A stretch of DNA of 8,406 bases from Myxococcales bacterium (GTDB lineage: Bacteria > Myxococcota > Myxococcia > Myxococcales > Anaeromyxobacteraceae), in NCBI GenBank assembly GCA_021784995.1, contig JAJYHA010000091.1:1-8406 (forward strand), read 5' to 3'. Within the stretch, counting starts at the first letter, position 1. Every line of letters starts with the position of its first letter. Of this stretch, positions 187 through 8,406 are shown in pieces. The notes beneath the pieces are model-generated. The model saw only the letters and a list, made by a program, of their open reading frames with translations, ran no database searches and was not told the DNA's origin. The position numbers were made by a program, and so were the translations under genes.

Positions 187-1518
187 CTACCCGCACCCGC
201 CCTTCACCGCCACCTTGGCCTTGAGCTTCACCTTCTTCTGGAAGGCGTAGGTCGGCCAGACGATCCCCTCGTGCTCCCCGCCCTCCGGCTCCCCCTCGGT
301 CGCCACCAGCTGCCCGCACGGTGAGCGGAAGTCGGGCGAGCTGGGGAGCTCCGGCCAGGCGGCCGGCAGGCTGGAGCCGGTCGCGTAGGCGAAGCGCCAC
401 GCGAGGGCGTCCGGATCGGCGGGGGCCGGGACGGCCCGCTCGGCGATGCAGGCGGGGACGGGGTAGAGCTCGAGCCAGCGGTCGATCCCGCCGTCCAGGA
501 CGTAGAGGTTGTTGGCGCCGAGCGCCTTGAGCTCCTTCCACGCGGCCAGCTCGGCCGGCTCGCCGTTCCCCACCAGGAAGGTCACGGTGCTCGCCGGGGC
601 GTCGAGGAACCCCTTCAGCACCGCGGGTCGGGCGAGGTCCCCGGGGGCCACCCGGCGCGCCCCGCCCAGGTGGAACAGGTTGAAGTCGTGCTCGTCGCGC
701 AGGTCGACGACGTTCACCTGCAGGTTCAGGTCCTTGCGCAGGGCGACCACCTCCGCGGGGTGGACGAAGATGCTCCGGTCCTCGACCGGCTGCGCCGCCG
801 CCGGCCCCAGGAGGGCGAACTTCTCGGCGGGGGTGGGCTGGCCGCGGGCCATCACCACCACGGTGGCCAGGACGATCGCGGCCGCCGCGGCGAAGCCGGT
901 CCGGCCGGGGCGGAGCGAGATCTCGGCCCAGGGCTTCCCCTGCCCGAAGCGGGCCACGGCGAGATCGCCGAGCCAGAAGAGGAGCAGGGCCATGGCGACC
1001 AGGAGCAGCAGGGTCGCCCCCACCGGGAGCCCGAGCCAGTCGGCCAGGGTGAACCGACCCATCGCCGAGGAGAAGAAGAACCCCTGGAAGCCGGAGACCG
1101 TCTCCCCGAAGGCCCAGATCCCGGTCAGCACCCCGACGAGGAAGACCATCCCGTCGACCTTCAGCGTCGAGGCGGCGACGATCGAGGTGCCGGGGCAGAA
1201 GCCGCCGAGCACGAAGCCGACGCCCATGATGAGGCCGCCGACGATCCCCGGCCAGAGGTAGGTCGGGTTGATCCAGACCCGGCTCATGTCGAGGAGGCCG
1301 AAGGCGGTCGCGCCGGCGATGAGGACCGCGGCCACGATCATCCCGGTGAACATCACCTTCAGGACGGTCATGTCCTTCAGGTAGAACTGGGCGGCGAGCT
1401 TGCGGGTGTCCCCGAAGCCGCCCATCTCCAGGGCGGCGCCGAAGCCGGCGCCGATCGCCCCGAAGAGGAGCGCGGTGCCGACGGGGCCGAGGGTGGCTGC
1501 GAGATCGATGGGGAGCAT
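187..1518 (-). CDS. YeeE/YedE sulfur transporter fused to a degenerate rhodanese domain
   Basis: 443 residues. Residues 1-230 form a YeeE/YedE-type membrane domain with about six hydrophobic segments (near 13-35, 53-75, 90-107, 121-137, 163-184, 207-224) and the family motif GFCPGTS at 106-112 with Cys108. YeeE/YedE proteins such as TsuA import thiosulfate or related sulfur species using conserved cysteines. Residues 248-350 have a rhodanese fold signature (VVDLRDEHDF at 270-279, LDGGIDRWLE at 341-350), but the active-site loop reads FLVGNGEPAE and lacks the catalytic cysteine. A tail follows (355-443) with Cys357, Cys401 and Cys442, ending in a lysine-rich stretch and GGCG. Lys195, Arg203 and Arg206 precede the last membrane segment, so the positive-inside rule puts the rhodanese part in the periplasm (inference). 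AGGAG at 1526-1530 sits 7 nt before the ATG. It is the last gene of the operon, 19 bp after its partner. Confidence 0.88.
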   Translation of the reverse strand: MLPIDLAATLGPVGTALLFGAIGAGFGAALEMGGFGDTRKLAAQFYLKDMTVLKVMFTGMIVAAVLIAGATAFGLLDMSRVWINPTYLWPGIVGGLIMGVGFVLGGFCPGTSIVAASTLKVDGMVFLVGVLTGIWAFGETVSGFQGFFFSSAMGRFTLADWLGLPVGATLLLLVAMALLLFWLGDLAVARFGQGKPWAEISLRPGRTGFAAAAAIVLATVVVMARGQPTPAEKFALLGPAAAQPVEDRSIFVHPAEVVALRKDLNLQVNVVDLRDEHDFNLFHLGGARRVAPGDLARPAVLKGFLDAPASTVTFLVGNGEPAELAAWKELKALGANNLYVLDGGIDRWLELYPVPACIAERAVPAPADPDALAWRFAYATGSSLPAAWPELPSSPDFRSPCGQLVATEGEPEGGEHEGIVWPTYAFQKKVKLKAKVAVKGGCG

Positions 1519-1537
1519 GTGGTCTCTCCTGGGACGG

Positions 1538-2062
1538 TCAGGTCCAGAGCCGGCGGACGAACCAGGCGAGCGCGTACCCGCTGGCGAAGATGGCGAAGGC
1601 GAAGGCCAGGCTCCCGGCCGAGAGGGTCGCGACCCCGGAGAGCGCCTGCCCCGAGGTGCAGCCCCGGGCCATGCGCGCCCCGTAGCCCATGATCGCGCCG
1701 CCGGTCAGGGCGAAGAAGACCCGGGCCGGGGTGGAGATCCGGGGGCCCTTCCGGAACTCGAGCTTGAAGCGCCGGTTGACGAGGCCGGAGACCAGCCCCC
1801 CGACCGCCGTCCCGACCAGCATGTAGACCTCGGAGGAGGCCCAGGGGTTCTTCCGCCCGCCGGCGATGTCGGCGAAGTAGGCGTTCCGGTCCACGTGCCC
1901 GGGCGCGAACCAGCTCAGGACGCCGGTCTGCACGTGGGTCAGCGCCCCCGAGGCGCCGAGCCCTCCGCCGGTGATGAAGAAGGCGAGGAAGAGCACCACG
2001 CCGAGCAGCGTCCCGGCGAGGTACGGGTTCACGTAGGGACGCGCTTCCTTGGTGGTGGCCAT
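1538..2062 (-). CDS. half-size YeeE/YedE family membrane protein
   Basis: 174 residues from an ATG preceded by GGAG (2069-2072) at 6-nt spacing. The frame stays open far upstream, but that part is a shadow of the cytochrome gene; MATTKEARPY starts 2 bp after the preceding TGA. Hydrophobic segments lie near 13-31, 80-95, 114-128 and 148-169. The hallmark is GGAIMGYGARMARGCTSG (121-138) with Cys135, the conserved sulfur-contacting cysteine motif of YeeE/YedE (TsuA-like) transporters. Full-length members contain two such halves, so this protein and the next gene's membrane domain (Cys108) probably form one transporter as a heterodimer (inference). The likely cargo is thiosulfate or another sulfane-sulfur species, but the sequence does not fix the substrate. 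The loop at 50-78 is unusually long and polar. Confidence 0.88.
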   Translation of the reverse strand: MATTKEARPYVNPYLAGTLLGVVLFLAFFITGGGLGASGALTHVQTGVLSWFAPGHVDRNAYFADIAGGRKNPWASSEVYMLVGTAVGGLVSGLVNRRFKLEFRKGPRISTPARVFFALTGGAIMGYGARMARGCTSGQALSGVATLSAGSLAFAFAIFASGYALAWFVRRLWT

Positions 2063-2064
2063 GT

Positions 2065-4323
2065 TCAGCTCCGCTCCGGCGCGGCCTCGCCCGGGTCGAC
2101 CGCCTGGTAGCCGGTGATCATCGACTCCAGGTGCTCGGTGGGCGTGCGGCCGGTGGTGACGAGGTAGACGTGCAGGACGAAGAAGGAGAGGAAGAGCCAG
2201 GACCCTGCGTTGTGGAGCGGCGCCACGTAGTGGAGGCCGCCGAGCGCGGTGGCCACGTCCGGCCAGTGGCCGACCGCCCAGATGAGCAGCCCGGTCACGA
2301 TCTGGAGCGGGAAGAGGACGTTGAGGAGGGCCAGGTAGGTGACCTGCTGCAGCGGGTTGAGCTTGTGGCCCGGCGCGTTGGTGGGGTGGGGCCCGCCGAA
2401 GAAGATGCCGCGCGACTGGTAGGCCATGTGCTCGAGCGCCCGCGCCAGGAACCCGTGGGGCTCGGGGATGAAGTTCCGGATCGCCCGCGTGGTCAGGTGA
2501 TAGAAGAGCGCCAGGAAGGCGTTCAGCATCAGGAGCACGGCGAACACGTTGTGGAGCGACACCGCCCGCGGGAGGTCGATGAGCCAGCGGGGCGTGGCGG
2601 AGTGGATCTCCAGGCCGCTCACGATGAGGAGCACCCCGGAGAGCGCCATGGTCCAGTGCCAGAGCCGCTCGTACCGGCCGAAGACGTAGGCCCGCCCGCC
2701 GTCCGCGTGCGCGTGCCGGGTCCGCGCCTTGCGCAGCACGAACCGGACCAGGCCGTGGGCCGCCACCCCGAGGAAGACCGCCACGAAGAGGGCGAAGCCG
2801 AGGGTGTTGGTGAGCCCCTCCCGCGAGTGGCCGAGCACGTGGAGCTTGCCGGGGGCGGCCTCGCGGTCGCGCTCCAGGACGAGCGAGCCGTCCTCGCCCG
2901 GCGTCAGCACGCCGGCGAGCTCGACCCGCGACCCCTCGCGAGGCCGGGGCGGCGTCCCGCCGGGGAGGTACCCGGCCACGACGAAGCGCGCGGACATCCG
3001 CGAGTCGCCGGAGTGGCACTCGGAGCAGTCGCGCAGCGCCCGGTCGCGCGACGGCACGCCATGGCCGAGCGGGTAGGTGTCGAGCGTCCCCTCGATCACC
3101 GGGTCGACGACCCCGAGGACCGCGAGCCGACCGGCCACCAGGTCGGCCTTGCGCCGGGAGTCGAGCCGGAGCTCGCTCTCCTCCAGGCGGCCGTCGTGGT
3201 TCGCGTCGAACCGCTCCAGCACCGCCGGCGCGTAGGCGTTGCCCTCGAGGTAGGCGCGGGCCACCAGCTCGGGCGGGACCTCGGCGCGGGTCGCGCCCGA
3301 GATCCAGCGGAACCGGCTCACGGTGTTGACCGGCGCCAGGCGGGTGACGCCGTCCTGCTCCTGGCGCTCGACGAGGAGGGGCCGGAACGGCCGGATGGTG
3401 GCGGCGTTCAGCGACTCGCCGGGCCGCGGCGAGGCGTTCCGGTAGCGGACCACCGGCTTGCCGGCGGTGGTGACGACGGTGGCGTCCACCATCTCCAGGG
3501 CGAGCCCCATCGGCGCCGCGACGTGGCACGCCTGGCAGGCGAGCACGGTCATGTGGCGGCTGCGATAGGGGAGGAACTCGTGCGCCTGGAGGGCGTCGTG
3601 GCAGGAGCGGCAGCCCTGCTCGACGAACCGGTGGTCGGGGCGCACCAGGAACTCGGCGGTCGTCGCGCGCCGCGGGTCGTCGGTGAGGTAGCGCAGCGCG
3701 GTGTGCCGCTCGGCCACCCGCCCCGGGTTGTTGCTCGCGTAGTGGCAGGCGACGCAGTCGACGAGCTTCGCCGCGTGGACGTCCCAGGGCGACTCGAGCT
3801 TCGCCTTCCCCTGGAGGTCGAGGAAGGAGTCGGCCATCCGCTGCGGCGCCACGATCGCCCCCTCCCCCTGGGTGAGGGAGAGGGTCCGGCCCGGCGCGCC
3901 GCCCGGGGAGGAGTAGTCGGGCGGGATGGCCACCGGCGCCGCCCCGTCCGAGATCAGGCCGTGGCAGCGGCCGCAGCTGGCGGCCCGCGGCGCCCCGATC
4001 CGGATGGCGGCGCGGACCAGCCGCCCCTCGGCGTCGAGGGTCTCCGCGCGGACGTCGAGCGCCCCTCCGTCGACGTGGCACTGGACGCAGGTCGCCGTGA
4101 CGGCCGGCCCGGCGTGCCGGCTGTGGGCCGCGATGTACGCGGCGTCGTGGCAGGCGCCGCAGGTCCGCTCGACCGAGATCGCCCCCGCGGCGCGGGTCGG
4201 GTGGCCGGCGGCGTCGAGCGGCGCGAAGACCGGGTGGATGGGGTTGACGGCCTGCTGGCCGAGCGCCGGCGCGGCGAGCGAGACGGCGAGCGCGACGAGG
4301 GTCGGGCGGATCCGGCGGTTCAC
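2065..4323 (-). CDS. heptaheme cytochrome c fused to cytochrome b561-like quinol oxidoreductase domain
   Basis: 752 residues starting at GTG. Residues 1-22 look like a Sec signal peptide with likely cleavage after ALG. Seven CXXCH c-heme sites begin at Cys55, 79, 117, 190, 238, 263 and 433. An EF-hand-like loop (373-384, DANHDGRLEESE) lies between hemes six and seven. From about 506 there are five hydrophobic helices (506-530, 555-573, 588-611, 664-685, 704-724) with histidines 556, 591, 609, 704 and 718 placed as b-heme ligands, as in the b-type subunits of the NiFe-hydrogenase/thiosulfate reductase group. The likely role is oxidising menaquinol in the membrane and passing electrons through the periplasmic c hemes to the octaheme enzyme encoded just upstream, with which it overlaps by 4 bp. 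Its own redox partner or catalytic site is not evident. Domain assignment is strong; the electron direction is inferred. Confidence 0.88.
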   Translation of the reverse strand: MNRRIRPTLVALAVSLAAPALGQQAVNPIHPVFAPLDAAGHPTRAAGAISVERTCGACHDAAYIAAHSRHAGPAVTATCVQCHVDGGALDVRAETLDAEGRLVRAAIRIGAPRAASCGRCHGLISDGAAPVAIPPDYSSPGGAPGRTLSLTQGEGAIVAPQRMADSFLDLQGKAKLESPWDVHAAKLVDCVACHYASNNPGRVAERHTALRYLTDDPRRATTAEFLVRPDHRFVEQGCRSCHDALQAHEFLPYRSRHMTVLACQACHVAAPMGLALEMVDATVVTTAGKPVVRYRNASPRPGESLNAATIRPFRPLLVERQEQDGVTRLAPVNTVSRFRWISGATRAEVPPELVARAYLEGNAYAPAVLERFDANHDGRLEESELRLDSRRKADLVAGRLAVLGVVDPVIEGTLDTYPLGHGVPSRDRALRDCSECHSGDSRMSARFVVAGYLPGGTPPRPREGSRVELAGVLTPGEDGSLVLERDREAAPGKLHVLGHSREGLTNTLGFALFVAVFLGVAAHGLVRFVLRKARTRHAHADGGRAYVFGRYERLWHWTMALSGVLLIVSGLEIHSATPRWLIDLPRAVSLHNVFAVLLMLNAFLALFYHLTTRAIRNFIPEPHGFLARALEHMAYQSRGIFFGGPHPTNAPGHKLNPLQQVTYLALLNVLFPLQIVTGLLIWAVGHWPDVATALGGLHYVAPLHNAGSWLFLSFFVLHVYLVTTGRTPTEHLESMITGYQAVDPGEAAPERS

Positions 4324-5738
4324 TGGCGACCTCCGATCTTGATCGGGTCACCGGCGTAGCCCAGGGCCTTCCAGTCGAGGCGGGAGTGGTCCCCGTGGCA
4401 GTCGGTGCAGGTGAGCGCCCGCTCCTTGGGCGCGACCATGTGGGAGAGCGGCCAGTCCATCTCCGTCGGCGCGAAGCCGAACTTGCCGCTGAAGGGAAGG
4501 TTCGAGAGCTTGGCGCCGAGCGTGAGCGCGCTCGGCCAGTCGAAGGTGGTCCAGTAGCCGCCCGGGCCGCCGGTGAGGGGGGGGAGCAGGTAGTCGTTCA
4601 CCGCGTCGTAGGGCTGCTTGGCCAGGTGGATCTTGTAGGGCCAGATGCGGGCGGTCGGATCCCGGATCGAGCCGCGGGGCGGGTTCAGGACCGTGGTGCG
4701 GGTCGGGTCGAGCTTGTCGCCGAGGAGGTACCGGTCGACGGTGCCGTTGAACCACCGGTACTCCGGGAGCGCGCCCTGCTCGTAGGTGAACTCGCCCTTG
4801 ATCTTGAGGTAGTGGTGCACGTCGTCCTTGCGGCTCGCGTCCCCCGCCTTGCTCCAGTCCCAGGTCGCCTTGGTCGGCACCTTCCCGGCGAAGGACGGGA
4901 TGTGGCAGGTCTGGCAGGCGACGGCCGAGAGGTGGGCGTTGATCCGCTCGTCCCGGTGGGCCGGCTTCACGTGGCAGCCGGTGCACGAGACGCCGTGCGA
5001 GTCCTCGACGCTCACCGAGAAGGCGCGGCCCGGGATCTGGTGGTCCGGCGACCGGTGGCAGTCGACGCAGAGGAACTGCAGCCGGCCCATGTGGACTGCC
5101 GCGCTCTCCAGCGGGTGGTTGAGCGAGGAGTCGAGGTCGCCGTGCTTCACCCCCTGGCCGCCGCCGCCGTAGGCGTGGCAGGTGAGGCAGTTCTCGCGCC
5201 GGGGGGTCCCGACCGAGCGCGCCACCGCCGCGAGGTCGGTGCCGGCGACGGGCGTGCCGAAGTCCCCCTTCACGTAGGAGTTGCTCCCCTCGTGGCAGAC
5301 CAGGCAGTCGACGTTCGCCGGATCCTTGAAGTCGAAGGAGTCGTCCTTCCAGCCGTTGCCGATGTGGCACTTCATGCAGGACTTGTTGTTGCCGCGGGTG
5401 GTGATGCAGAAGTTGTTGATCAGGTTCTTCTTGCCGATGCGGACCTCACCGGCGTGGCCCGGCACCGCCACCGGGTCTCCGACCCAGCTCCAGTGCGAGG
5501 TCTTCATGATCGAGGCCGCGTCCGGGTGGCACTTGAGGCAGGCGCGGCTCACGTCCTCCGCCCGCTCGAACTTCCCGGTGATGACCGCCGCGTGGTCGAA
5601 GTGCGGCCGGACCGGCCTGACGAACTGCGCCTCCCTGCCTTCGCGGGGAGCGGCCGCTGGCCGGAGCGCGATGGCGACGCCGATGCCGCCGCCGATGATC
5701 AGCGCCACCAGGGCAGCCAGGATCCATGGACTCTTCAT
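4320..5738 (-). CDS. otr: octaheme cytochrome c, tetrathionate reductase (OTR) family
   Basis: 472 residues with exactly eight CXXCH sites, beginning at Cys67, 121, 145, 184, 224, 252, 275 and 444. This count, the conserved segment NNFCITTRGNNKSCMKCH (108-125), and the long heme-free stretch between hemes seven and eight (280-443) match the octaheme tetrathionate reductase family typified by Shewanella OTR. That enzyme reduces tetrathionate in vitro and also nitrite and hydroxylamine; its physiological substrate is less certain. Residues 4-25 are hydrophobic after a single lysine, with no clear cleavage site, so the protein is probably anchored in the inner membrane and faces the periplasm. 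In OTR the active-site heme has a lysine ligand; which lysine serves here cannot be settled by eye. GGAAGG lies about 8 nt before the ATG. It is the first gene of the operon, directly downstream of the divergent regulator's intergenic region. Confidence 0.9.
   Translation of the reverse strand: MKSPWILAALVALIIGGGIGVAIALRPAAAPREGREAQFVRPVRPHFDHAAVITGKFERAEDVSRACLKCHPDAASIMKTSHWSWVGDPVAVPGHAGEVRIGKKNLINNFCITTRGNNKSCMKCHIGNGWKDDSFDFKDPANVDCLVCHEGSNSYVKGDFGTPVAGTDLAAVARSVGTPRRENCLTCHAYGGGGQGVKHGDLDSSLNHPLESAAVHMGRLQFLCVDCHRSPDHQIPGRAFSVSVEDSHGVSCTGCHVKPAHRDERINAHLSAVACQTCHIPSFAGKVPTKATWDWSKAGDASRKDDVHHYLKIKGEFTYEQGALPEYRWFNGTVDRYLLGDKLDPTRTTVLNPPRGSIRDPTARIWPYKIHLAKQPYDAVNDYLLPPLTGGPGGYWTTFDWPSALTLGAKLSNLPFSGKFGFAPTEMDWPLSHMVAPKERALTCTDCHGDHSRLDWKALGYAGDPIKIGGRQ
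4329..4334 (-). promoter_or_regulatory. strong Shine-Dalgarno fixing a GTG start
   Basis: On the minus strand GGAGGT lies 5 nt upstream of GTG at 4323-4321. The GTG overlaps the octaheme gene's stop as GTGA, typical of translational coupling. It also puts the start directly before a good signal peptide, which settles the non-ATG start. Confidence 0.8.
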
Positions 5739-5834: not shown

Positions 5835-5919
5835 CACAATGTATTTTCGTGTACGACGGCGCCGGCTCTGCCCGGCGTGTTTCTCGCTTGTCACGCTTTG
5901 CGCGCCGCGTGCCGTGGCC

Positions 5920-6006: not shown

Positions 6007-7458
6007 ATGAAGAGCCAGTCGAACGTGTCGACGCCCCCCGCGGAGACCGGCGCGGCCTGCGTCCAGGACCACGAGATGGCCTTCGCGGCGGTCAACGCCG
6101 CCTTCGGGTCCCTCGGCCGGGTCTGCATGGCCCTCGACGGCGACTTCCGGATCCGCCACGCCTCCGAGCTCCTCGCGTCCCTCATCGGCCAGGCCGCCGC
6201 CGCGAGGGCCCGCGGCCGCCCCGCCGAGGAGATCCTGGGCGCGGAGCTCTTCGGCGAGTCGGGGCCGCTGCGCCAGGCGCTCGTCTCCGGCGAGAAGCGC
6301 GAGGGCTGGCGCGCCTTCCTCCAGGCGGAGGGCGGCCCGGCCCGGCTCATGTCGGTCTCGGCCGCCCCGCTCCAGCCCGACCGCTACGGCGTCTGCGATC
6401 CCGACGCGCGCTACCTCGTGGTGATGCGCCCCGCGGACGAGGCGACCGTCGAGGCGAGCGGCCCGATCGCCGGGTTCGGCCTCATCGCCCGCTCGAAGGC
6501 GATGGCCCGGGTCTTCCGGCTGATCGACACCCTCCAGTACGGCGAGGCGACGGTCCTCATCACCGGCGACAGCGGCACCGGCAAGGAGGTCATGGCGCGG
6601 ATCATCCACGCCAACTCCCCGCGCCGGAGCGGCCCGTTCGTCGCGGTGAACGCCGCGGCGCTCCCCGGCGAGCTCCTCGAGAGCGAGCTCTTCGGCCACG
6701 TCCGCGGCGCCTTCACCGGCGCCGTCCGGGACCGGGTCGGGCGCTTCGAGTCGGCGAGCGGCGGCACGCTCTTCCTCGACGAGGTCGGCGACGTGCCCAT
6801 GAACCTCCAGGTGAAGCTGCTCCGGGTCCTGCAGGAGCACGCCTTCGAGCGCGTCGGCGACGGCCAGACCCGGCCGACCAACGCTCGGATCATCGCCGCC
6901 ACGAACCGCAACCTGCGCAAGGCGGTCGCCGACGGCCAGTTCCGCGAGGATCTCTACTACCGCCTCCGCGTCTTCCCGATCGAGCTCCCGCGCCTGCGCG
7001 ATCGCCGCGAGGACATCGAGCCCATCGCCGCGCTCCTCCTCTCGCGGGCCGGCGCCCGCACCGGCCGCGCCCTGCGGCTCTCCCCCGAGGCGATCCGCGT
7101 CATCCACTCGCACCCGTGGCCCGGGAACGTCCGCGAGCTGGAGAACGCCCTGGAGTTCGCGGCCACCGTCTGCCGGGGCCAGACCATCCAGCCGGAGGAC
7201 CTCCCGCACGAGATCCTCGAGGGCGCGGGCTTCGGGGACCCCCGGGCCGATCCCTCCCCGGCGGACGATCCCCCGCTGGCCCCGCCCCCTCCCCACGCGC
7301 CGCACGCCCCCGCCCGGGCCGCGCCCGAGCCGGGCGAGCGCGCGGCCATCGTGCGCGAGCTCGAGGGGCACCGCTGGAACCGGATGGAGACCGCCCGGGC
7401 GCTCGGCGTGAGCCGCAGCACGCTCTGGCGCCGGATGCGGGCGCTCGGCCTCGAGTGA
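6007..7458 (+). CDS. sigma-54-dependent transcriptional activator (PAS-like, AAA+, Fis HTH)
   Basis: 483 residues. Residues 30-125 resemble a PAS sensor (LDGDFRIRHASELL at 43-56), with no phosphoacceptor receiver domain. The AAA+ domain spans about 155-400: Walker A GDSGTGKE (187-194), the sigma-54-contacting GAFTGA loop (234-239), Walker B TLFLDE (254-259) and arginine-finger region REDLYYRL (313-320). A proline-rich linker (411-441) leads to a Fis-type helix-turn-helix (447-481, ARALGVSRSTLWRRMRAL). These proteins hydrolyse ATP to open promoters bound by sigma-54 RNA polymerase. An in-frame TGA at 6001-6003 makes the ATG at 6007 the earliest possible start; the ribosome site is weak (GGGTGA). 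Divergent placement suggests it activates the octaheme cytochrome/YeeE operon. The PAS-like region would sense the signal directly, but no cofactor-binding residue can be named; Cys40 and Cys130 lie in or beside it. Confidence 0.9.
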   Translation: MKSQSNVSTPPAETGAACVQDHEMAFAAVNAAFGSLGRVCMALDGDFRIRHASELLASLIGQAAAARARGRPAEEILGAELFGESGPLRQALVSGEKREGWRAFLQAEGGPARLMSVSAAPLQPDRYGVCDPDARYLVVMRPADEATVEASGPIAGFGLIARSKAMARVFRLIDTLQYGEATVLITGDSGTGKEVMARIIHANSPRRSGPFVAVNAAALPGELLESELFGHVRGAFTGAVRDRVGRFESASGGTLFLDEVGDVPMNLQVKLLRVLQEHAFERVGDGQTRPTNARIIAATNRNLRKAVADGQFREDLYYRLRVFPIELPRLRDRREDIEPIAALLLSRAGARTGRALRLSPEAIRVIHSHPWPGNVRELENALEFAATVCRGQTIQPEDLPHEILEGAGFGDPRADPSPADDPPLAPPPPHAPHAPARAAPEPGERAAIVRELEGHRWNRMETARALGVSRSTLWRRMRALGLE

Positions 7459-7465
7459 GCGCGCC

Positions 7466-8113
7466 CTAGGTCGCCGCGAAGAGCATGCCGCTGCGGAGGA
7501 TGACGGCGCCGAAGGCCACGAGCAGGAGCCCGGAGGCCCACCGGACCGCGACCGGGTGGGCGGCGATGGCCCGCACCCGCGTCCGGAGCGCCCGGGAGCC
7601 GTACCCGACGGCGAGCATCGGCAGCGCGAAGCCGGCGGAGTAGACGAGGAGGAGGATCACCCCCACCGCGAGCGAGCCGCGCGTCGCGACCATCGCCAGG
7701 ACGCTCGACAGCAGCGGCCCGACGCAGGGGATCCAGACCAGCCCCAGGCTCGCGCCGAGGAGGAGGCCGGACCAGCGGCCGCCCCCCACCGGTCCGACGC
7801 GCTGGAGCCAGGTGAGCCGCTTGAAGAGGTTCACGTCGGCGAGGAGCAGCAGGCCGGTGGCGAGGACGAGCGCGCCGGCGATCTTCTCCAGCGCCGGCAG
7901 CGCCGGCCCGATGGCGCCGCCGAAGAGGCTGCTCGCGATCCCCATCGCCACGAAGCTCGCGGCGATGCCGGCCACGACCAGCGCCGGCCGGGAGCGGTGC
8001 TCCTCGGCGGTGCCGGCGACGATGATCGGTACCACCGGCAGGACGCAGGGGCTGGCGACGCTCGCCAGGCCGGCGCCGAAGGAGAGCGCGAGGGTCGAGA
8101 GGCCGATCGCCAT
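7466..8113 (-). CDS. ccdA: CcdA-type cytochrome c biogenesis/thiol-disulfide membrane protein
   Basis: 215 residues, nearly all hydrophobic, with about six membrane segments. The two diagnostic motifs are SPCVLPVVP (21-29, Cys23) and IPCVGP (128-133, Cys130), the redox-active cysteine pair of the CcdA/DsbD transmembrane family. These proteins carry reducing equivalents from cytoplasmic thioredoxin across the membrane, for example to reduce apocytochrome c heme sites. The frame stays open upstream but there overlaps the thioredoxin-like gene, so MAIGLSTLAL, 8 bp after that gene's stop, is the best start. The Shine-Dalgarno is poor (GAGC about 6 nt upstream), so translation may depend on coupling. 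The length is normal for CcdA. The gene is convergent with the regulator and is not in the cytochrome operon. Many c-type heme sites nearby make a maturation role attractive but unproven. Confidence 0.88.
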   Translation of the reverse strand: MAIGLSTLALSFGAGLASVASPCVLPVVPIIVAGTAEEHRSRPALVVAGIAASFVAMGIASSLFGGAIGPALPALEKIAGALVLATGLLLLADVNLFKRLTWLQRVGPVGGGRWSGLLLGASLGLVWIPCVGPLLSSVLAMVATRGSLAVGVILLLVYSAGFALPMLAVGYGSRALRTRVRAIAAHPVAVRWASGLLLVAFGAVILRSGMLFAAT

Positions 8114-8121
8114 CGCCGGGC

Positions 8122-8406
8122 TCAGCGGCCGACGAGCTCCAGGACCTCCGCCGGGGACTGGATGCCCGGCGGGGCCCGGCGCAGCTCGCGGCCGGCAGCG
8201 TCGGTCAGGAGCAGCTCCGGGAGCGCGCGGATCCCGTACTGCTCGAAGCGGACGATCTCGGCCGGCTCGGTCGTCCGGTAGCGGACGACCACCGCGCGCC
8301 CCTGCAGCTGGCCGGACATCTCCTCCAGGATCCGCTCCTGCATCTGGCACGGCCGGCCGTTCGGGTTCATGAAGAAGACGAGGCGGGGGAGCTCGGCGGC
8401 GACCGG
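8122..8406 (-). CDS. thioredoxin-fold protein with a single active-site cysteine (partial)
   Basis: The 94 C-terminal residues are visible; the N-terminus lies beyond the right edge. The fragment opens with LPRLVFFMNPNGRPCQMQ, matching a thioredoxin strand-loop-helix in which the usual WCGPC reads NGRPC. The first, nucleophilic cysteine is glycine and the second is kept (codon 8347-8349). The later RALPELLLTDAAGREL carries the expected cis-proline region and hairpin. It lies 8 bp upstream of the CcdA gene and shares its strand, so the two probably form an operon and may be redox partners. With one cysteine it cannot do classical dithiol exchange; a monothiol, persulfide-carrying or binding role is possible (inference). 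Part of the frame can be read from an internal ATG at 8370, but the open frame and homology continue to the edge, so I treat it as truncated. Confidence 0.8.
   Translation of the reverse strand, partial: PVAAELPRLVFFMNPNGRPCQMQERILEEMSGQLQGRAVVVRYRTTEPAEIVRFEQYGIRALPELLLTDAAGRELRRAPPGIQSPAEVLELVGR

Follow-up and report, generated by a model that had tools for sequence, protein, structure and literature searches.

A candidate reduce-and-import unit for sulfane sulfur, with a cysteine-tailed rhodanese-like carrier, encoded with an OTR-family octaheme cytochrome in a Myxococcales bacterium

What does an OTR-family octaheme cytochrome reduce when it is encoded together with the halves of a sulfur transporter? 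OTR octahemes act on sulfur as well as nitrogen compounds in vitro, and we considered which of the two they serve in the cell for an operon on an 8,406-nucleotide stretch of DNA (hereafter the window; contig JAJYHA010000091.1 of assembly GCA_021784995.1) from a Myxococcales bacterium whose draft genome of 2.58 Mb is 79% complete and whose genes have Anaeromyxobacter and Myxococcales records as close named relatives. Four minus-strand genes (187–5738), joined successively by a 4-bp overlap and gaps of 2 bp and 19 bp, encode an OTR-family octaheme cytochrome c (4320–5738, 472 residues), a fusion of a heptaheme c domain with cytochrome b561 (2065–4323, 752 residues), a PmpA/YedE1-type C-terminal half of a YeeE/YedE transporter (1538–2062, 174 residues) and a PmpB/YedE2-type N-terminal half continued by a hydrophobic anchor, a rhodanese-like domain and a cysteine tail (187–1518, 443 residues; gene 4 below). 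We propose with moderate confidence that the products of these genes reduce and import sulfane sulfur as one respiratory unit that works with a cysteine-tailed carrier. The original prediction, made from the sequence of the window alone, had named this gene set with these spacings, comprising an OTR-family octaheme, a c/b fusion and two complementary YeeE/YedE proteins with a rhodanese-like module, and gene calls and family profiles bore out each of these assignments.

The octaheme matched TIGR04315 at 517.1 bits over positions 2–440 of 440, above the curated cut-off of 375, and aligned over nearly its whole length with the Shewanella oneidensis OTR structure 1SP3 (E 4e-130), keeping its eight CXXCH hemes together with Lys198 (VKHGD), which we take to be a heme ligand, and Cys111 (NNFC). 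The comparison with Shewanella OTR covers the protein itself; what stands out in the window is that the gene is accompanied by a dedicated heptaheme/cytochrome b feed and by an importer of sulfur. The fusion protein carries seven CXXCH motifs and a PF01292 cytochrome b561 domain (81 bits), and its low-confidence structural model (predicted local distance difference test score, pLDDT, 63.9) matched 1kqf_C and, weakly (E 4e-3), 1sp3, so that the heptaheme domain is at most a possible copy of OTR; we infer that it feeds electrons from quinol to OTR. In the excerpts available of the published work, which is the scope of every citation here and below, the OTR homolog BOGUAY_2386 reduced tetrathionate faster than nitrite (PMC6449678), an Acidobacteriota otr was 36-fold up with tetrathionate at 8 days and 1.8-fold, not significantly, at day 1 (PMC8528874), and otr adjoins soxY-S3 in lucinid symbionts (PMC11237559), while an OTR with a neighbouring cytochrome b in Thermosulfurimonas is among the nearest arrangements in print (PMC4911364).

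Genes 3 and 4 proved to be complementary halves, covering the 310 positions of the PF04143 profile at 174–308 and 4–194, respectively, with a PF00581 match accounting for the rhodanese-like part of gene 4. One cysteine is conserved per half: Cys135 (RGCTSG), the single cysteine of PmpA, is invariant in 14 of 14 aligned relatives, and Cys108 of PmpB (GFCPGT; codon 1195–1197, minus strand) is invariant in all 240 homologs listed, these being the best 120 of 3444 for gene 4 and the best 120 of 3001 for a protein of OTR clade II (see below), queries included. In both respects the genes resemble the published half-size YedE1E2 pairs, which speed the import, not the export, of zero-valent sulfur and require one cysteine in each half (PMC10812762); the window's PmpB differs in adding the anchor, the cysteine-less rhodanese domain and the GGCG tail, whereas YedE1 and YedE2 are described as about 14 kD each (PMC10812762). 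PmpB and PmpA correspond to the N-terminal and C-terminal parts of TsuA, including the second and third of its cysteines, and from that comparison we take PmpB Cys108 as the equivalent of TsuA Cys91 (PMC11582611). Judged by sequence, the importer is a split PmpA/PmpB (YedE1E2) pair. The original prediction had instead called it a TsuA-type YeeE importer of thiosulfate, a claim that we rejected, since the C half reached only 42.8 bits against NF052577 (cut-off 400), the N half had no TsuA match and the protein is split. TsuA of the TsuA–TsuB (YeeE–YeeD) thiosulfate importer belongs to the same PF04143 superfamily but is a single protein of nine helices that has three cysteines and a TusA-like partner in the cytoplasm (PMC11582611, PMC11073785), a description that the window's pair does not fit.

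Beyond its transporter half, gene 4 has a rhodanese fold that has lost the catalytic cysteine. Within the rhodanese-like domain (residues 255–350; 469–756, minus strand) the catalytic site reads FLVGNGE, with Val316 (codon 571–573) at the catalytic position, and no cysteine lies within six columns of it in any of the 240 homologs listed. The basic C-terminal tail (190–243) ends in KGGCG, with Cys442 encoded at 193–195; this KGGCG end recurs in 120 of 120 close gene-4 homologs listed, as does a C-terminal GGC in 120 of 120 clade-II homologs listed. Across the 240, only PmpB Cys108 and the tail cysteine are invariant, C357 and C401 being restricted to the window's kind and C113 to clade II. In the AlphaFold2 model of gene 4 (mean pLDDT 81.6), residues 438–443 fall below 50, as expected of a flexible arm; searches with this model by Foldseek and VIA-align 2 listed rhodaneses, TsuA not being among the matches listed, an absence of little weight given the middling confidence of the membrane half. 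A role of the tail as a sorting signal was not favoured, there being by eye no hydrophobic helix ahead of it. Because the free-standing rhodaneses of four loci (L052, L054, L057 and L189, with L denoting loci and G genomes), which end in GSCG or GGCG, begin with basic residues and one hydrophobic stretch, the rhodanese domain and its tail are predicted to be periplasmic.

Such a tail recalls SoxY, whose sulfur-carrying swinging arm has a GGC motif (VTIGGC; PMC11237559), and the C-terminal GGC of gene 4, likewise on a flexible arm, may work alike. The two carriers differ in descent: no SoxY family appeared among the Pfam matches of gene 4 up to E 0.01, and the scaffold here is a dead rhodanese or another, unrelated protein. 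Of the 16 loci in OTR clade III and in the sister group of that clade, 14 encode a small secreted protein ending in GGC or AGC, upstream of OTR and on the same strand (none was found in L077, and L080 is cut by a contig end). This protein has a signal-peptide-like start, by eye, and no Pfam family above cut-off; the last residue is Cys in 115 of its 120 homologs listed (from 295), the other 5 ending in Cys-Ser. The tail is borne by PsrA itself at L239 and by a metallo-beta-lactamase/rhodanese protein at L242 and L243, so that four kinds of protein carry it (dead rhodanese, small secreted protein, molybdoenzyme subunit and metallo-beta-lactamase/rhodanese). A first background control, with 12 tails in 337 called genes, all OTR-linked, was widened to 1094 called genes with a stop codon at the fetched loci, where the pattern (G|GS|GA)C.{0,3}$, chosen after tails had been seen, matched 55; carriers of these units make up 47 of them (a different set from the 47 tailed loci given below), and the other 8 include three OTR-type C-termini ending in GCP.

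The original prediction had staked its proposal on conserved co-occurrence in other genomes, which we checked in 195 genomes of the window's phylum and in 396 from the phylum to which G197 (Aminicenantes, locus L044) belongs. TIGR04315 exceeded its cut-off in 20 of the 195 (21 loci), and the neighbourhood was present: a PmpA/PmpB pair adjoins OTR in 17 of 17 loci above 500 bits, the seventeenth being G008, whose OTR is broken over two contigs, the second of which holds the rest of OTR, the heptaheme, cytochrome b, the pair and the rhodanese. In the second sample OTR was over the cut-off in 36 of the 396 genomes, and among 60 loci read the pair was found in six (L124, L125, L127, L130, L132 and L133); the remainder, many of them OTR-plus-cytochrome-b loci, had no pair in the fetched stretch. 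Linkage was also seen in named Acidobacteria and Aminicenantes records, the culturable Anaeromyxobacter oryzae Red232 (L033) carries the set, and genomes G196 and G197 yielded no PF04143 pair other than the linked one. An OTR tree was built from 111 rows, using only OTR matches above 200 bits and 330 residues; 31 of the rows are linked and fall into three groups, the linkage label requiring at least four changes: clade I, which is the window's (18 of 18 linked, 17 with the heptaheme), clade II, without the heptaheme (8 of 8), and the distant clade III (5 of 7). By source names, the gene-4 homologs listed come from Anaeromyxobacter, Myxococcota, Acidobacteriota, Ignavibacteria, Bacteroidota, Thermodesulfovibrionales and Armatimonadota, a range of proteins and not of neighbourhoods. 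As the same arrangement recurs in distant genomes, we do not attribute the four-gene set to chance.

Three further observations were made among the OTR loci. L124 has a single OTR-cytochrome b unit between two PmpA/PmpB pairs, the one GGC-tailed and the other beside a rhodanese ending in KKKKEGC. OTR-like domains occur in frames with 13–14 CXXCH at L061, L089, L165–L173 and L175, where importer and tail were not found. Near OTR genes of other clades (L128, L134, L135, L136, L160, L140, L142, L143, L146–L149, L153, L174, L176 and L177) lies an open reading frame ending in PMTCG(G/K) or PETCGG, a second kind of C-terminal cysteine beside OTR; the nine read each have one CXXCH and, by eye, a signal-peptide-like start.

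Other PF04143 loci of these genomes had been fetched as an intended negative control and first labelled ‘unlinked’. All seven high-scoring control pairs (L179, two in L180, and L182–L185) turned out to adjoin a PsrA-like molybdoenzyme and an iron–sulfur subunit; within the stretches fetched, five show NrfD/PsrC and three a porin of the FadL type. Every one of the seven is cysteine-tailed, which led us to reject the tail as an OTR-only feature. The L184 PsrA matches 2VPW over its length (E 5e-218), an entry named thiosulfate reductase in the PDB and presumably the Thermus polysulfide reductase, and two PsrA-like proteins have PhsA as their best NCBIfam match (424 and 435 bits, below the cut-off of 694); ‘Psr-type’ is used here as a family label, not as a proven substrate. 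A census of the 195 genomes by PmpA profile gave 51 pairs above 180 bits, a count that leaves out 10 matches at or below 96 bits, one of which (G036:C1:3908105, L181) is without a tail. Psr-type enzymes adjoin 27 of the 51 pairs (L237, at a contig edge, judged by NrfD alone), OTR-type enzymes adjoin 22 (17 in clades I and II, 5 in clade III) and a metallo-beta-lactamase/rhodanese protein adjoins 2. With three contig-truncated loci (L035, L038 and L231) left out, the cysteine tail is present in 47 of 48 assessable pair loci, L077 having none; the low-scoring PF04143 loci L186, L187, L188, L191 and L192 showed no tail among the ends listed. Since the same half-transporter and tail recur in polysulfide-reductase-type operons, a role in sulfur metabolism is favoured, and the importer link common to the two kinds of operon points to sulfur for OTR as well.

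The gene composition of these Psr-type operons was also noted. PsrABC-type operons with PmpA, PmpB and a tailed protein make up L179–L185 and L223–L241, and in some of them an outer-membrane protein of the FadL type (PF03349) and an ArsR regulator are encoded as well. Among the nearest published cases is Desulfurivibrio, whose Psr operon includes a rhodanese (PMC12142623).

Regulation was assessed from the region upstream of OTR. A divergent sigma-54-dependent activator (6007–7458, plus strand; PF00158 at 232 bits) has a weak PAS match, an AAA+ domain and a Fis-type helix-turn-helix, and a sigma-54-like −24/−12 element, CGGCACGCGGCGCGCA (5899–5914, minus strand), lies 161 bp upstream of the OTR start codon. 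The form GGCACG-N5-CGCA, at 5914–5899 in the window, precedes OTR in all 9 of the scanned loci that have the divergent regulator and is absent at the tenth scanned locus, L039, on whose contig no regulator was shown; the window yielded neither a sigma-70-like promoter nor an intrinsic terminator. The activator likely regulates the operon. Two cysteines in the N-terminal part are invariant in 11 of 11 members of its subfamily versus 0 of 8 other sigma-54 activators, the groups being split at 580 bits by a cut chosen after looking at the data, and the subfamily includes the regulator of the Psr-type locus L179 and one near L071, an OTR locus of the clade-III sister group. We regard the two-cysteine activator as a candidate persulfide or disulfide sensor.

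The original prediction of a coupled periplasmic reduction and sulfur uptake is supported in part: the linkage is conserved, and the recurrence with Psr-type enzymes favours a sulfur role; the import of thiosulfate through TsuA fell away, and sulfane-sulfur import would take its place. In the unit as we picture it, quinol would probably be oxidized by the cytochrome b561 domain and the heptaheme domain would relay the electrons to OTR, where an S–S bond of tetrathionate, of some other polythionate or of a polysulfane would be cleaved in the periplasm. The cysteine of the GGCG tail would be loaded with a sulfane sulfur or a thiosulfonate group, as on the SoxY arm. Resting on a catalytically dead rhodanese scaffold anchored to PmpB, this arm could move between OTR, where the tail adduct would be made or reductively released, and the mouth of the PmpA–PmpB pore, and sulfur would enter the cytoplasm over PmpB Cys108 and PmpA Cys135. 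The reductive step is placed provisionally at OTR, sulfane sulfur would be what is taken up, and the flow would run inward, with the operon probably switched on in response to sulfur by the two-cysteine sigma-54 activator.

Several observations weigh against this proposal. The tail accompanies the half-transporter no less than it does OTR, which leaves a contact between tail and OTR as an inference; the membrane side of the tail rests on charge patterns judged by eye; and the tail pattern is broken at L133 (clade I), which ends in LYCTAH, as well as at L077, where pair and OTR are present and no tail was found. Of the 21 OTR loci in the window's phylum, four with 392–433 bits (L058–L061) do not have the pair. 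On the wider set of OTR rows, 17 of the OTR-plus-cytochrome-b kind are without it (three of them, L097, L128 and L135, on contigs ending within 1 kb), and several OTR clades lack both importer and tail. No TusA-like acceptor was seen in the window. In Hyphomicrobium denitrificans, pmpAB is not thiosulfate-regulated, and the authors, in the portion of the paper available, saw no evidence of a role for it in that organism's oxidative sulfur metabolism (PMC11582611). In vitro, nitrite and hydroxylamine are substrates of OTR enzymes as well, and the same work warns against predicting substrates from phylogeny alone (PMC6449678).

The last point raises the rival of nitrogen respiration or detoxification, under which OTR would reduce nitrite or hydroxylamine with the transporter genes as bystanders. 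Against it, transporter pair and tail stay with OTR across genomes and turn up again beside Psr-type enzymes; the window itself has no recognisable nitrogen gene, neighbours at other loci having not been scanned systematically. Nitrogen chemistry is accordingly disfavoured, and we hold it to be very unlikely as the function of this operon. A second rival is a Sud-like carrier that would bring polysulfide sulfur on its tail to the reductase only, with PmpAB as a separate supply branch. Rhodaneses such as Sud work through an active-site cysteine, and the rhodanese-like domain of gene 4 weakly matches 1qxn (E 0.005), which we take to be Sud. Sud presents polysulfide to PsrABC in Wolinella (PMC2628731), so that a periplasmic rhodanese-fold protein serves a sulfur reductase there, and PsrABC-type enzymes are what the sister loci hold; the window's domain differs in missing the active-site cysteine and having the tail cysteine in its stead. 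In nine loci of the clade-III sister group and in L073 a small tailed protein is the neighbour of OTR and the stretch fetched showed no PmpAB, as a carrier to the reductase alone would have it, but most scaffolds of clades I and II are fused to PmpB, and the tail accompanies PmpAB in 47 of the 48 assessable loci of the subfamily, which makes this alternative unlikely.

Sulfur sensing would invert the roles, with PmpAB and the tail importing a little sulfur to inform the regulator and OTR as the respiratory output. The two-cysteine sigma-54 regulator would suit such a scheme, as would the ArsR regulators of sister loci, which match BigR at 55 and 58 bits, below its cut-off of 155, and the published action of SoxT1B in signal transduction (PMC11582611). 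Carrier and importer are nevertheless tied to the reductase operon and not to the regulator gene on the opposite strand, and we consider a purely sensory role highly improbable. We favour a reductase and an importer that share tail-bound sulfane sulfur, because the published parts together with the census agree best with it.

The nearest published parallels and the meaning of the tail can be considered together. In Dethiobacter alkaliphilus the SirA/Otr-like octaheme DealDRAFT_1917 is clustered with rhodanese-domain proteins and upregulated by thiosulfate, but no YeeE/YedE pair or cysteine tail was seen in these clusters as far as the available text goes, and identity to Otr and SirA is about 20–23% (PMC10376724). 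The original prediction knew of no description of this exact set, and in the available parts of the open-licence literature, most subscription papers lying outside it, we likewise found none, nor one of a cysteine tail on a cysteine-less rhodanese. The tailed proteins may constitute a class of sulfur carriers of the periplasm that is new to the literature and united by a usually basic C-terminal tail ending in approximately [G/A/S/E]GC instead of by a fold; they would hand sulfur between PmpAB and two unrelated classes of respiratory S–S reductases, octaheme OTR and the molybdenum PsrABC type, a generalization for and against which we find the case evenly balanced. If it is true, the real substrate of many OTR enzymes would be protein-bound sulfur, and the reading of the operon proposed here would explain one periplasmic intermediate common to respiratory reduction and sulfur uptake. 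The tail cysteine offers a single residue to mutate and weigh, and a C-terminal GGC beside PF04143 halves provides a sequence mark for finding such systems.

Two further features border the operon. Directly after the gene 4 stop lies a GC-rich inverted repeat (135–166) with 13-nt arms, 92% complementary, and a 6-nt loop, which, being without a T run, is only possibly a terminator. At the other end, convergent with the sigma-54 regulator, are minus-strand genes for a CcdA/DsbD-like membrane protein (7466–8125) and a thioredoxin-like protein (8122–8406), a pair that might possibly act in the reduction of cytochrome or tail thiols; CcdA homologs also occur within the fetched loci L034 and L036.

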